DNA from: an uncultured Ectothiorhodospiraceae bacterium | GTDB taxonomy: Bacteria > Pseudomonadota > Gammaproteobacteria > XJ16 > Halofilaceae | Reading direction: 5' to 3' | Length of the DNA: 64,000 nt | Assembly (NCBI GenBank): GCA_913055615.1 | Contig: CAJXKK010000004.1 | Span: forward strand, 62,001 to 126,000 | Shown: in pieces, positions 18,807 to 26,994 of the stretch | Layout: every line of letters begins with the position of its first letter | Position numbering within the stretch: position 1 is the stretch's first letter | Notes under the pieces: generated by a model | The model's input: the letters and a program-made list of their open reading frames with translations, nothing else | Told to the model about the DNA's origin: nothing | Database searches by the model: none | Made by a program: the position numbers and the translations under genes

Positions 18807-21207
18807 CGCGCAGCATCCCGCAACCGCCCCCCGGTCGGTCGTCGATGCGGTGGACTCCGCCGTGCGCAGGATCCCGCCGGCCTGGCCGTTGTCGGCTGCC
18901 GTGGCGGTCAATCCCTTCCTCGGCCAGACCGGCGAGCCGCTGTGGCAGGCGCAGGCGCGGCTGCGTCGCGTCGGCGGGAGCCGGGCGACGCCATCACGGG
19001 CGTGGTATCAGCAGCGCATCGCGAACGGCCGGATCACCGATGAGGATCTCGCAGCGGCGCTCGAGGCGGCACCGGTGTCGTCGCGCCCGGCCAATATCGA
19101 CACACTGAAGGCGGCGGCGTCCACGCCCGCCCCGCGGCCGGTCGCGGTCGCGACCGTCGCGGAACTCGCCCAGTCCGTATCAGGGATCGATTGGCCCGGC
19201 CTGATCGCCGAGCGCATCGGTGCCTGGGCGGCATCCTGGTTCGATGAGGGTCAGGCGCTGTGGGTGGCGCCCGCGCACCGGGGCGTTTACGACGCATGGC
19301 GCTGGGAGGCCACCCATGACCTTACGCCCGAGATCCAGGGGTTGCGCGGATTCGCGCGCCACGTGGCCGATGCGCCGGATACCCCGGATCGCGCGATCGC
19401 CCGGGCCGTTGATCGGCTCGGGCTGTCCGCGGCCGCGCTCGAAACGGCCTTTCACCGGCTGCTGATGACCCTGGGCGGCTGGTCGCAGTACGCGCGCTAT
19501 CGCCTCTGGCAGGCCGAGCTGCGCGGTGAGACCGACTCGACCGCGGCGGAACTGCTGGCGGTCCGGCTGGTGTGGGAGGAGGCGCTGTTCGAGCAGTACG
19601 GCGATGCGCTGCGCGCCGGCTGGGTCGAGAGTGTCGAGCGTCATGCGCGGCCAGTCGTCGCCGAGACCGACGATGTGATCGATGCCGTACTGCAGGACGC
19701 CGCGGAGCGCGCCGAACAGCGCTCGCTGGCGGCGGCGCTCGGTGGCGCGGTGGCTGCGGCGACCGATGAACGCCCGGCGCTGCAGGCGGCGTTCTGCATC
19801 GATGTCCGCTCCGAGGTGTTCCGCCGGGCACTGGAGTCGATCGACGGGCGGATCCGTACCCTCGGGTTCGCCGGTTTCTTCGGCGTGGCGACCGCGCACA
19901 GGCGCTTCGCCTCCGATGTCGAGGAGCCGCGACTGCCGGTTCTGCTCAACGCGACCGTGCACAGCTGTGCGACCCCTGACCATCAGCTCGATTCTGACCG
20001 GCGAGCGCGCATCCTGGCGCGGGCGAAAAGGGCCTGGGGGCGGTTCAAGTTGGCCGCTGTATCATCATTCGCGTTCGTTGAGGCGATGGGCCCGGTCTAC
20101 GCCGGCAAGCTGGTCCGCGACACGGTCGGCTTGCCGGGGCACCGCCACCGCCACGATCCACCACCGCGATTCGTGCCCGAACTCGGGGAACAGGCCCGGA
20201 TCGACGCGGCGGAGCGGGTGCTGCGGGCGATGTCGCTGACGCGCGGTTTCGCGCGGGTGGTCGTCATCGCGGGCCACGGCGCCGAGGTCGTCAACAATCC
20301 CCATGCGAGCGCATTGCAGTGCGGCGCCTGTGGCGGTTACTCCGGCGAGGTCAACGCGCGCCTGCTGGCGGGGCTGCTGAATGACCGGAGCGTGCGCGAA
20401 GGGGTCGCCGGGCGCGGCATCGAGATCCCGGAAGATACCGTCTTCCTGGCCGCCCTGCACGACACGACCACGGATACCGTCGAGCTCTTCGATGGCGATC
20501 TCGACACACAGGGACACGGGGATGACCTGGCTCGTGTGCGCCGCTGGCTCGCCGCCGCGGGTGCCGTCGCACGCAGCGAACGGATGCTGCGGCTGCCGCG
20601 CGGCGGCGCGGGCGGCGAGCCGCGGCGCCGGGCGCGGGACTGGTCCGAGATCCGGCCCGAATGGGGCCTGGCGGGGTGTAACGCCTTTATCGCGGCACCG
20701 CGCGCCCGCACGGCCGGCCGGCAGCTCGAGGGCAGGGCGTTCCTGCACGACTACGACTGGCGCCTGGATGAGGGCTACGGTGTACTTGAACTGATCCTGA
20801 CCGCGCCCGTGGTCGTAGCCAGCTGGATCAGCCTGCAGTACTACGGCTCGGCCGTGATCCCGGAGCACTTCGGCGGCGGCAACAAGCTGCTGCACAACGT
20901 CACCGGCGGCATCGGCGTCGTCGAGGGCAACGGCGGCCTGCTGCGCACCGGCCTGCCGTGGCAGTCGGTACACGACGGCGAGCGCCTGGTGCACGAACCG
21001 TTGCGCCTGACCGTCTGTGTCGAGGCACCGACCGAAGCGATCACCGACATCCTCGATCGTTACCCCGACGTGCGCGCGCTGTTCGACAACGGCTGGCTCC
21101 ACCTGTTCGCCCTCGACGACGCCGGCCACATGGCCAGCCGCTACGTCGGCAACCTGCAATGGCAGCCCCTGGAGGGCGAGCCGAGCGTCGCCAGCGCTTC
21201 GGGGTGA
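18796..21207 (+). CDS. dabA: DAB inorganic carbon pump catalytic subunit DabA (DUF2309)
   Basis: An 803-residue DUF2309 protein. Putative zinc site: Cys and Asp in [12 protein letters not shown], His in [14 protein letters not shown] and Cys in [11 protein letters not shown], matching the beta-carbonic-anhydrase-like ligands described for DabA. The GTG at 18796 follows GGGAGG (18784-18789); the longer open frame lies inside dabB. With DabB it should make a vectorial CO2-hydrating pump that accumulates bicarbonate. No carboxysome or Rubisco gene is in the window, so autotrophy cannot be proven from here. Confidence 0.94.
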
Positions 21208-21223: not shown

Positions 21224-21620
21224 ACCACGAATGAACACGGATGGACACGAATGCTGGTGCAGCGCATATCGGGTCTTGCGGGAGCTTCGCTGAGAGGCTG
21301 TGTCAGCCCGAACCGTGGAAAAGAACCACAGATGGACACAGATGCAAGCAGATTAAGGTCAAAGGCGGCCGGTCACAGACCGTGAACCCGCGATCCAGTC
21401 TGATCGCCATTTCTTTTGACCTTATCTGTGTTTATCTGCGTCCATCTGTGGTTCTCATACCCCGTTTCAGGACTGACGCGCTTTCAGCGAAGCTGCTGCA
21501 AGCTGTAGGCGCCCGGCGCCAGCATTCGTGTCCATTGCTCGGCGCGTCCATGCGCCTCGCCCCCTTCGGGGCTGGCGCGAAGATTTGCTTCCGGCGAATC
21601 TTTCGTGTTCATTCGTGGTT
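21224..21620. repeat. nested inverted-repeat element between dabA and rpsF
   Basis: Three pairs of inverted arms nest inside each other. Inner: 21323-21363 with 21415-21454, about 40 bp each and mostly identical, built around ACCACAGATGGACACAGAT. Middle: 21283-21306 with 21471-21494 (AGCTTCGCTGA core). Outer: 21224-21257 with 21519-21535 plus 21601-21620, built around ACCACGAATGAACACG; its right arm is split by about 65 bp (see the repeat at 21541-21600). No credible gene lies in the 558-bp gap 21208-21765. Such Watson-like imperfect palindromes with simple ACAGAT/GAATGAACA units recur in many environmental bacterial genomes; I know no established function. Confidence 0.85.
21541..21600 (+). 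repeat. dispersed palindromic repeat, copy 1 (inserted in outer arm)
   Basis: The 60-bp segment aligns with 58642-58699 with one 2-nt gap and roughly 80% identity: shared GGCGCGTCC-TGCGCC, CGCCC, GGCTGGCGCG, GCT-CCGGCG-ATC blocks. It sits exactly where the right outer arm of the nested inverted repeat is split, so it looks inserted. Confidence 0.7.
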
Positions 21621-21765: not shown

Positions 21766-22197
21766 TTGCGTCATTACGAAGTCGTGTTCCTGGTCCACCC
21801 TGACCAGAGCGAGCAGGTTCCGGCGATGGTCGAGCGATACCGCCAGATCATCGAGAATGACGGTGGCACGGTCCATCGTCAGGAAGACTGGGGCCGCCGC
21901 CAGCTCGCGTACTCCATCAGCCGCGTCCACAAGGCGCACTACGTGCTCATGAACGTCGAATGCGGGGCCGAAGCGCGCGACGAACTCGAGAGCGCGTTCC
22001 GTTTCAACGACGCCGTCCTGCGCCACATGGTCCTTGCCCGCGAAGAGGCGGTCACCGAGCCGTCGCCGCTCGCCCGCAAGGAAGAGAAGCGGGACGACAA
22101 GCGCGCCGCCCGCCAGGGCAAAGAGGAAGGCGAGGGCGAATCGTCCGCGAATGCCGACGCCTCCGAGGCGCCCGAGTCGACCGCGTCCGACGCCTGA
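21766..22197 (+). CDS. rpsF: 30S ribosomal protein bS6
   Basis: A 143-residue ribosomal protein binding bS18 on the 30S platform. Family opening [19 protein letters not shown] and the [21 protein letters not shown] motif are present. The start is TTG at 21766 with a strong AAAGGAGG 5 nt upstream; no ATG is available. The C-terminal 45 residues are a charged Lys/Glu/Ala tail longer than average. It opens the rpsF-rpsR-DUF2232-rplI operon and follows the DAB island. Confidence 0.96.
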
Positions 22198-23908: not shown

Positions 23909-24047
23909 GGGCGGCGGTAACGCGCTCCCCGGGCTCGGCCCCGGGGACGCGGCACCCGAAGCGGGGTGACGGAGGCCGCTCGGCGCGCGCCTTGCAGTCC
24001 GGCAGCGGGATGGCGCGTGGGGGCGCGGCCGGGCGGTCCGCCGGTTC

Positions 24048-24075
24048 TTGGCGGTCCGCCCGAGCGGGCTATAAT
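24048..24075 (+). promoter_or_regulatory. sigma70 promoter of dnaB
   Basis: TTGGCG (24048-24053), 16 bp, and a perfect TATAAT (24070-24075), 54 bp upstream of the dnaB ATG. Confidence 0.6.
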
Positions 24076-24129
24076 CGGTCGACGTTGGCACCGGCCGCAA
24101 CGGCGGGTGCACGGTTGCGGTGGTGTTGC

Positions 24130-26994
24130 ATGTCCGAAAGCTTCCCTTCACTCAGTGAGGAAGCGCGCGCCGTCACGGCGCGCGTGCCGCCGCATTCCAT
24201 CGAAGCGGAACAGGCCGTGCTCGGCGGGCTCATGCTCGCCAACGATGCCTGGGATCGTGTCGCCGACCGTGTCTCCGAAGAGGATTTTTACCGGCGCGAG
24301 CACCGGCTGCTGTTCCGTGCGCTCGGCGAGCTCGCGGACAACGACCAGCCGCGCGATGTGGTGACCGTCTCGGAATGGCTGTCCCAGCACGGCGAACTCG
24401 ACAACGTCGGCAATCTCGCCTATCTCGGCCAGCTCGCCGAAGAAACGCCCAGCGCCGCCAACATTACCGCGTATGCCGACATCGTCCGCGAGCGCTCGGT
24501 CGTGCGCCAGCTCATCGCCGTCGGCGAAGACATCGCCCGTGCGGCCTACGAGCCGCAAGGCCGTGACAGCAAGGCCCTGCTGGACCACGCCGAACAGCAG
24601 GTCTTTGCCATCGCCGATCAGGGCAGCCGCCGTCAGCGCGGCTTCCAGCCCATCAATCGCATCCTGACGGCGACCCTGGACCACCTCGATACCCTGCTGC
24701 AGTCGGACTCCCACATCACGGGGGTGGAGACGGGCTTCAGCGAATTCGACGATCTGACCTCGGGTATGCAGCGCTCGGATCTGGTGATTGTTGCCGGCCG
24801 TCCGTCGATGGGCAAGTGCCTCTCCCACGACAGCGAGATCGTCCTGGCCGACGGGCGGGTCGCTACCATCGAGGAGATTTACAGGCGCGGCGAGGCGCGG
24901 CTCGCGACTCTGGGCGCGAATATGCGGCTCGACTGGACAGAGCCGAGCCACTTCGTCGATGACGGCCACAAACCGGTCTTCGAGGTGACGACCCGACTTG
25001 GCCGTCGTGTCGAGACCACCTGGACGCACCCGTTCCTGACGATGGATGGCTGGAAGCCCCTGTCGGATATCCGGCCGGGCGATTCCATCGCCGTTCCCCG
25101 CCAGCTGCCCGTATTCGGCTCGAATGCGCTGCGCGAATGCGAGGTCAAGGTGCTCGCCTACCTGATCGGGGATGGCGGGCTGACCGGCGCGACCCCGGTC
25201 TTCACCGCGACGAATCCGCGGATCCGCGCGGATTTCGCCGCTGCCGTCGAGGCGTTCGGTGGCGTTCGCATCCGCCCGGTCCAGCCCTCCTGGCGGGCGC
25301 GTTCCTGGACGGTCGTGCGTGATGTCCGTGGCGTCGGCATGGCGCGGAGCGCGTTCGCGGAGAACCTGAACCAGGCGATCGCGGCGACGGGACGGTCCGC
25401 GCGTGTGCTCGCGGGCGGGATCGGTGTCGCGCCCGCTACGATGACGTATTGGCGCCAGGGCCGGAACGTGCCGGATGGTGAGACGCTGGCGCGTGCGGCC
25501 GAGGTGCTCGAGGTCGAACCGGAGGCGCTTTGTGCCAATGGCGGTGAAGAGGCCCGCCGATGTGGCGTCAATCCGCTTCGTAAATGGCTGGCGGAACTGG
25601 GGCTCTACGGGTGCGATGCCCACGGCAAGCACATCCCGACACCGGTGTTCTCGCTGCCGCGCGAACAGCTCGCGCTGTTTCTGAATCGCCTGTTCGCGAC
25701 CGACGGCTGGGCTGGGCTCTGGCACAGCGGCCAGGCACAGATCGGCTACGCCTCGACCAGCGAGCGGCTCGCGCGACAGGTGCAGCATCTGCTGCTGCGC
25801 TTCGGCGTGCTCGGCAAGCTCCGCCGCCGGTGGGTGCGTTACGGTGAGGCGCGTCGTCCCACTTGGCAGCTCGATATCTCGCATGCGGACTCCATGGTCG
25901 TCTTTGCGCGCGAGATCGGGATCCACGGCAAGGAAGAGGCGGTAGATGCGGTGCTCGAGGCGGTGTCCGCGAAGCGCCGACAGAGCAATACGGATCACGT
26001 GCCCGTGGAGGTGTGGTCGCTTATCGAACGCGAAAAAGGGGATCTGGGCTGGAGCGAACTCGCTCGACGCGCCGGGGTCGCCTCATCCAATCCCCATCCC
26101 CACCGCCGCGGCCTGAGTCGGCAGCAGCTGGCCCGTTATGCGATGGCCCTGCAGTCGCGGAAGCTGATGCAACTTGCCGACAGCGACCTGTATTGGGATC
26201 GGGTCGAGGACATCACGAATCTCGGCGAGAAGCAGGTCTATGACCTGACGATCCCGGACACCCACAATTTCGTCGGCAATGATATCTGCGTTCACAATAC
26301 GTCGTTCGCCATGAATATCGCCGAACACGTCGCGCTCACCAATGGCGAGCCGGTCGCGGTCTTCAGTATGGAGATGCCGGCCGAGCAGATCGCAACGCGC
26401 ATGATCTCCTCGCTCGGTCGGGTCGAACTGCAGAAACTGCGTTCGGGCCGTCTGGAAGAGGCCGATTGGCCGCGTATCAACTCGGCCGTGGCCCTGCTGT
26501 CGCAGCAGTCGAAGCTGTTCATCGACGACACGCCCGGACTGACCCCGTCCGAACTCCGGGCCCGCGCGCGTCGCCTGAAGCGGGAACACGGGCTGTCGAT
26601 GATCCTCGTCGACTATATCCAGCTCATGCAGCTCGCCTCGACGGGGGAGAACCGCGCCACGGAGATCTCCGAGATCTCGCGTTCGCTCAAGGGGCTGGCG
26701 AAGGAACTCAACGTCCCGGTGATCGTGCTGTCGCAGCTCAACCGGTCGCTGGAGCAGCGCACCGACAAGCGCCCGGTGATGTCGGATCTGCGTGAATCCG
26801 GGGCGATCGAGCAGGACGCGGACGTGATCGTCTTCATCTACCGCGATGAGGTCTACGACGAGGACAGCCCGCACAAGGGCACGGCGGAGATCCTGATCCG
26901 CAAACAGCGTAACGGTCCGACCGGGACCGTGCGCGTCACCTTCCTCGGTCACTACACGCGCTTTGAGAATTTCTCACCCGAAGTCTACGGCTGA
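24130..26994 (+). CDS. dnaB: replicative DNA helicase DnaB with in-frame intein
   Basis: The 954-residue precursor contains a 494-residue intein (residues 230-723), leaving a 460-residue helicase, the normal DnaB length. The N-extein has the DnaB N-terminal domain (PPHSIEAEQAVLGG, residues 20-130) and runs to the P-loop GRPSMGK. The C-extein resumes with TSFAMNIAEHVAL, so splicing is needed to rebuild Walker A. Downstream DDTPGLT, IQLM (Walker B region), QLNRSLEQR and the SDLRESGAIEQDADVI motif are intact. ATG at 24130 is chosen for the MSESFPSLS start behind a good promoter. alr follows, as in many proteobacteria. Confidence 0.96.
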   Translation: MSESFPSLSEEARAVTARVPPHSIEAEQAVLGGLMLANDAWDRVADRVSEEDFYRREHRLLFRALGELADNDQPRDVVTVSEWLSQHGELDNVGNLAYLGQLAEETPSAANITAYADIVRERSVVRQLIAVGEDIARAAYEPQGRDSKALLDHAEQQVFAIADQGSRRQRGFQPINRILTATLDHLDTLLQSDSHITGVETGFSEFDDLTSGMQRSDLVIVAGRPSMGKCLSHDSEIVLADGRVATIEEIYRRGEARLATLGANMRLDWTEPSHFVDDGHKPVFEVTTRLGRRVETTWTHPFLTMDGWKPLSDIRPGDSIAVPRQLPVFGSNALRECEVKVLAYLIGDGGLTGATPVFTATNPRIRADFAAAVEAFGGVRIRPVQPSWRARSWTVVRDVRGVGMARSAFAENLNQAIAATGRSARVLAGGIGVAPATMTYWRQGRNVPDGETLARAAEVLEVEPEALCANGGEEARRCGVNPLRKWLAELGLYGCDAHGKHIPTPVFSLPREQLALFLNRLFATDGWAGLWHSGQAQIGYASTSERLARQVQHLLLRFGVLGKLRRRWVRYGEARRPTWQLDISHADSMVVFAREIGIHGKEEAVDAVLEAVSAKRRQSNTDHVPVEVWSLIEREKGDLGWSELARRAGVASSNPHPHRRGLSRQQLARYAMALQSRKLMQLADSDLYWDRVEDITNLGEKQVYDLTIPDTHNFVGNDICVHNTSFAMNIAEHVALTNGEPVAVFSMEMPAEQIATRMISSLGRVELQKLRSGRLEEADWPRINSAVALLSQQSKLFIDDTPGLTPSELRARARRLKREHGLSMILVDYIQLMQLASTGENRATEISEISRSLKGLAKELNVPVIVLSQLNRSLEQRTDKRPVMSDLRESGAIEQDADVIVFIYRDEVYDEDSPHKGTAEILIRKQRNGPTGTVRVTFLGHYTRFENFSPEVYG
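24817..26298 (+). mobile_element. DnaB P-loop intein with LAGLIDADG homing endonuclease and HTH
   Basis: Begins with Cys1 (CLSHDSEIVLADGRVATIEE, block A). Block B is TTWTHPFLTMDGWKPLSDI, with the TxxH pair. Endonuclease motifs are LAYLIGDGGL (block C) and LNRLFATDGWAG (block E), each with its catalytic Asp. Between them, about 25351-25530, lies an XRE-like helix-turn-helix. A second HTH-like segment (GWSELARRAGV) is near 26047. Blocks F/G read QVYDLTIPDTHNFVGND and end in VHN, next to Thr+1. All splicing residues are present, so it should splice. Insertion lies directly after the Lys of the Walker A motif. Confidence 0.93.

Follow-up and report, generated by a model that had tools for sequence, protein, structure and literature searches.

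Dispersed extragenic palindromes with an enzyme of their own are known from the REP/REPIN-RAYT systems, with their GTAG repeats and TIRtrons, in which the palindromes lie near gene 3' ends and a low-copy enzyme gene is bracketed by the repeat (PMC3733652, PMC8049555). A REP is defined as a short palindrome tagged with GTAG or CGTC (PMC3733652). In the intervening sequence (IVS) of Coxiella, heptamer tandem repeats are found beside an ORF (PMC4990558). Here we describe a nested inverted-repeat element spanning positions 21224-21619 of the window, the 64,000-nucleotide stretch of contig C4 of a 3.0-Mb draft genome that was analyzed. Short inverted repeats of the CACAGAG/CACAGATG/CGCAAAG type are common in environmental genomes, and neither a family nor an enzyme for them was found in the literature searched.

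The element (21224..21619) is a non-coding composite, as the sequence-only reading had held, and its layout is common to about 30 copies in the genome. From outside to inside it consists of an outer arm, a variable stretch V, a middle arm, a second variable stretch S, an inner arm and a loop, followed by the mirror image, and the arms are built of typed 10-bp units, CACGAATG outside and CACAGATG inside. On the left side the outer arm (21224..21253, + strand) is made of the three 10-bp units ACCACGAATG AACACGGATG GACACGAATG and is followed by V (21254..21279, 26 nt), the middle arm GGGAGCTTCGCTGA (21280..21293, +), S (21294..21322, 29 nt) and the inner arm GAACCACAGATGGACACAGATG..., also given as GAACCACAGATGG... 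(21323..21365, +), which carries a subterminal AAGGTCAAAGG. This motif (AAGGTCAAA) also adjoins the arm of the GxxExxY element of the sister species (L082). The right side comprises the inner arm (21412..21454, - strand), the middle arm TCAGCGAAGCT (21484..21494, -), a variable stretch V' (21495..21522) complementary in part to the left V, and an outer arm whose inner part CATTCGTGTCCATT (21523..21536, -) and terminal part CGTGTTCATTCGTGGT (21604..21619, -) are interrupted by a small-hairpin module of about 67 bp (21537..21603). Elsewhere in the genome this module occurs in either arm, or solo as matches to positions 305-402 of the query alone. Upstream of the element lies a DUF2309/dabA-like ORF (+ strand, stop at 21207) and downstream rpsF (+ strand, start near 21767); these neighbours are co-directional, so that the earlier placement of the element between a convergent island and the ribosomal operon has to be corrected. 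Further downstream, a DnaB-like helicase ORF after rplI (window 23992-26994) appears, as read from its translation only, to contain an intein at the P-loop (GRPSMGK/CLS ... HN/TSFA).

All three nested arm pairs of the sequence-only reading were recovered, with complementarities of 72-90%: 90% for the outer arms (21219-21239/21604-21624), 88% for a second outer stretch (21241-21265/21511-21535), 86% for the middle arms (21275-21296/21481-21502) and 72% for the inner arms (21311-21364/21413-21466). The large potential cruciform of about 400 bp that it had proposed was likewise borne out, since the nested pairs fold as one hairpin. As DNA the 400 nt form a single continuous hairpin of -132 kcal/mol (z -15.4), as RNA a single hairpin of -245 kcal/mol (z -19.6), and in neither case was any shuffled sequence equally stable. 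The arm motif, with up to 3 mismatches, was found 5 times in the window, always within the element, against 0.08 expected from shuffling. The 20-mer ACCACRRATGRACACRRATG has 91 matches in this genome and 117 in the sister species versus 0 for the reversed control pattern, which indicates a family and not chance.

Searching the genome with the element as DNA query returned more than 150 matching pieces, and mapping of the arm motifs resolved about 30 composites with a recurring layout; the sister species has even more arm copies. Arms elsewhere in the genome are mostly paired and do not stand only at random, unpaired positions. The inverted arms are tandem 8-10-bp units of ACRC type, identical in type on either side of an element, and CGAATG is the commonest outer type in this genome. 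In two copies (contigs C74 and C32) the nesting is reversed, with CAGATG outside and CGAATG inside, and the copy on C37 has CACAAAATG arms as an additional third shell, innermost of all. Neighbouring genes, called roughly from ORFs, are convergent around 14 copies, co-directional around 13 and divergent around 1, and at least one gene 3' end adjoins 27 of the 28 copies. Among 61 half-elements, V measures 24-28 nt and S mostly 29-33 nt (29-36 nt overall), and both are mostly unrelated in sequence among copies (median identity 42% and 39%). As V and S rarely match those of other copies of the family, there is little support for exchange between the copies sampled, and V and S may equally well have changed rapidly inside single copies. 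In the inner loop of the copy at C45:9917-10451 (G000) we observed an extra stretch, GTAGGTCGGG...CCCGACA, that resembles an inserted REPIN; similar repeats flank Y1_Tnp genes.

For 15 non-coding elements the joined flanks served as queries against the sister species. Every one of the 15 sites could be located (for two of them through a single adjoining flank), and each holds an element there. The interiors are 60% identical to the orthologue, 58% to non-orthologues and 53% to shuffled sequences, a small excess for orthologues (permutation p = 0.02), and at 5 of the 15 sister-species sites the inner shell type CAGATG is replaced by CATAACCAAAAAATG. Element sites persist between species while their contents turn over. 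Homologous GxxExxY genes (60% amino acid and 69% nucleotide identity) occupy the parE site in both sister species, between flanks that are 91-93% identical; the arms are of CAGATG type in this genome and of CGAATG type in the sister species, both sides having changed together. In a third species an exact pattern search returned 0 CGAATG or CAGATG arms, and with at most 1 mismatch 23 matches to CCACGAAANNCACGAAA were found, against 0 and 1 in the two sister species; its CACGAAA arms occur at the GxxExxY gene and in dispersed, unnested non-coding copies. Arms are thus typed, both arms of an element share their type and the types differ by species. At the site of the window element itself, a pyrC-like gene separates the corresponding flanks in the sister species, and the neighbourhood differs in the third species. 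The element at C3:41102 (G000) shows a distinct picture: its left flank matches another sister-species contig at 99% identity, the match ending at the element boundary, and its right flank lies in the sister species beside an element elsewhere (L180 on G001 C1; L189 on G001 C14). From these alignments it seems that a rearrangement or another mobile element broke at the element edge.

The arms also enclose a gene. A CAGATG arm pair at C6:15747-16211 surrounds exactly one complete gene, which encodes a GxxExxY protein (TIGR04256, E=4e-35; PF13366, E=4e-33). GxxExxY is found in CAGATG arms in this genome and never in CGAATG arms; the inner type of the window element brackets GxxExxY in this genome and its outer type does so in the sister species. 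Inverted arms of short tandem units were present at five GxxExxY loci of three genomes of the order, and at a sixth locus, on a cut contig, an arm was seen on the left side; the types at these loci are CAGATG, CGAATG, CACGAAA and CGCCAAG. In a phylum sample, 47 of the 249 genomes carry GxxExxY above the cut-off. Out of 81 loci, of which 35 came from searching the order and the phylum and 46 from genomes of GTDB (the sets overlap slightly, L210 being the GTDB record of L126 and L211 apparently very close to L132), 72 lie inside inverted arms scoring above the 95% point of a null of random intervals, where 4 were expected, and 65 above its 99% point; 9 had no detectable arms. The sampled GTDB loci come from Proteobacteria, Planctomycetota, Bacteroidota, Chloroflexota, Acidobacteria, Elusimicrobia, Spirochaetia, Ignavibacteria and others. 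The sequence-only reading had noted that such repeats recur in environmental genomes without known role: the recurrence stands, and as to their role there is now a lead, since GxxExxY nuclease genes of many phyla are bracketed by arms of this style.

Arm copy number tracks the presence of GxxExxY in the one family with enough genomes. In this family, which has the most GxxExxY genomes and which the data point to as relatives of Mariprofundus, the median arm count for one pattern is 15 with the gene and 0 without it (p=6e-7, uncorrected for phylogeny or MAG incompleteness); of its 24 genomes with no gene detected, some of them incomplete drafts, 7 have at least 4 arm matches. GxxExxY was absent from 50,697 phage records; among 72,556 plasmid records it was present in 8, every one of them classed as non-mobilizable, and we rejected spread by phages or plasmids on these counts. 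GxxExxY elements were observed to recur in the same operon gaps, chiefly in the trp operon, with further cases in suf-like and ileS-like surroundings (L126-L155, L061, L081, L083), which suggests preferred sites. A literature search on GxxExxY (TIGR04256, PDDEXK_3) and on the arm sequences returned no relevant description.

In the GxxExxY protein, D62, E72 and K74 are invariant (D-x9-ExK) and Q86 and Y90 nearly so, a pattern that matches the RecB/Cas4 signature. A PDB sequence search with the protein gave no match. Its AlphaFold2 model (pLDDT 95.6) has as top match among solved structures SSO0001 (4ic1), a Cas4 protein, with weak significance (E 0.013, TM 0.58), followed by alkaline and lambda-type exonucleases, also of weak significance. 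GxxExxY is predicted to be a minimal PD-(D/E)XK DNA nuclease with a Cas4/RecB-like fold. Its dN/dS of 0.05-0.28 in five pairs indicates purifying selection.

The arms were also compared within elements. In several elements V forms a perfect or near-perfect palindrome, and in many others the prefix alone is shared. The mean complementarity score of V with its own partner is 11.7 versus 6.3 for permuted partners, with none of 10,000 permutations as high; the left and right S stretches are, family-wide, devoid of complementarity to each other. For one trp site in the phylum sample, similarity is 0.70 between the left and the right arm of the same element, a figure favoured by the choice of own-pair arms as best matches, and 0.49 (left-left) and 0.48 (right-right) between orthologues. 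When the mismatches between arms are read on the sense strand, G-U is not enriched relative to A-C, with counts of 100 v 97 overall and 32 v 42 among the co-directional copies, in a comparison without positive control. This is suggestive evidence against pairing at the RNA level and is what would be expected if identity is kept on DNA.

We propose, with about even confidence, that the window element is a non-coding relative of the GxxExxY elements and that it is homogenized in place by DNA copying, which would probably be driven by the nuclease. The class to which it would belong is widespread and made up of small chromosomal elements; in their coding form, GxxExxY sits between inverted arms built of 8-10-bp tandem units. 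The nuclease may recognize or process the arms, either as duplex or as extruded cruciform, and repair would then use the opposite arm as template or, by way of the short homologous arms, another dispersed copy; nesting could arise when one arm type is inserted or copied into the loop of another. Such copying would keep the arms identical, replace the interiors in place and copy one element into another, and the gene would spread within its own arms like a homing gene. Several points count against a nuclease-driven process: CGAATG, the commonest outer arm type here, has no GxxExxY in this genome, arm matches occur in some genomes with no gene detected, 9 of the 81 gene loci show no arms, variable stretches seldom match between copies, and the fold match is weak.

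Other explanations were weighed against nuclease-driven copying. The elements could be miniature transposons of a classical transposase not yet identified, with GxxExxY as a frequent cargo that takes no part in movement. They are indeed small, repeated and intergenic, have terminal inverted repeats, and share their arms between coding and non-coding forms; however, recent jumping is not seen, all 15 compared sites being occupied in both species, no target-site duplication was seen by eye in flanks that included no clean empty site for comparison, homologous elements at the same site differ in their arms, unlike the fixed ends of a transposase, and bracketing of this nuclease extends over many phyla. 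We consider this reading unlikely. Slightly less likely still is an element acting at the RNA level, a 3'-UTR hairpin that ends or stabilizes transcripts or is cut from them, as RNase III does on intervening sequences. The very stable RNA fold, the gene 3' ends adjoining nearly all copies and the location of GxxExxY elements between operon genes would fit it, but the balance of G-U and A-C mismatches, the presence by eye of ordinary terminator-like hairpins in the flank of several copies and the absence of any Rfam match to the elements at E<=1 argue against it.

REP/REPIN repeats moved by RAYT transposases would also be extragenic palindromes close to gene 3' ends, and RAYT-type (Y1_Tnp) genes are present in these genomes. 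None of the 11 Y1_Tnp loci of three genomes is, however, bracketed by these arms (two loci contain a single stray arm-like match each), and several have their own GTAG-type repeats; RAYT as the mover was disfavoured on this ground and we hold this explanation to be very improbable. As for chance or assembly chimerism, long palindromes are prone to mis-assembly, but an independent assembly has the same architecture at all 15 orthologous sites, and this, together with the 20-mer counts against the reversed control, leaves it practically no weight.

More tentatively, and with some doubt, GxxExxY nucleases and arm-typed hairpins may form a previously unrecognized class of chromosomal elements present in many phyla, in which a minimal Cas4/RecB-like nuclease would drive copying within and between dispersed palindromes at fixed addresses, the arms staying identical while stretches of near-fixed length change fast; alongside it, a parallel class built of 7-bp units would encode the S23/IVP four-helix protein. 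In other genomes, loci of PF05635 (S23/IVP; L156-L179) were observed to have inverted arms of tandem units of about 7 bp (for example GCAGTAG, GTGAGTA and GCGAATG), 20 of the 24 above the 95% null, and these S23/IVP arms are analogous to the GxxExxY arms. The association offers a candidate enzyme for this class of repeats and a candidate substrate for GxxExxY, a protein of unknown function, and would represent a naturally occurring case of in-place DNA replacement at fixed addresses.

Compared with known systems, the elements resemble MITEs in being short non-coding repeats whose inverted ends resemble a coding relative. They differ in that no transposase is tied to the ends (Y1_Tnp being the one searched), that no target duplication was seen by eye, and that sites are common to species while contents differ. 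Like homing endonuclease genes, they include a small nuclease gene inside the sequence whose spread it might bring about, possibly with in-place replacement by repair; unlike these, they have many dispersed sites, inverted typed arms and non-coding copies. With the 23S rRNA IVS (S23/IVP) they share a small ORF within an inverted repeat and short tandem repeats beside the ORF, but the window element lies in the gap between the DUF2309 ORF and rpsF and not in a 23S rRNA gene, the protein is different (a PF05635 search of this genome gave no match) and there is no sign of RNA pairing. We file the element under 'extragenic palindrome with a dedicated enzyme', no description of the GxxExxY-arm class having been found in the literature searched. 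Its likeness to REPIN/RAYT lies in the combination of dispersed palindromes with an enzyme gene of low copy number that the repeat flanks on both sides. In place of a GTAG-tagged palindrome of 20-40 bp, however, it has arms of tandem 8-10-bp units of several types (ACCACGAATG/ACCACAGATG), and the bracketed gene encodes a putative PD-(D/E)XK nuclease instead of an HUH transposase.
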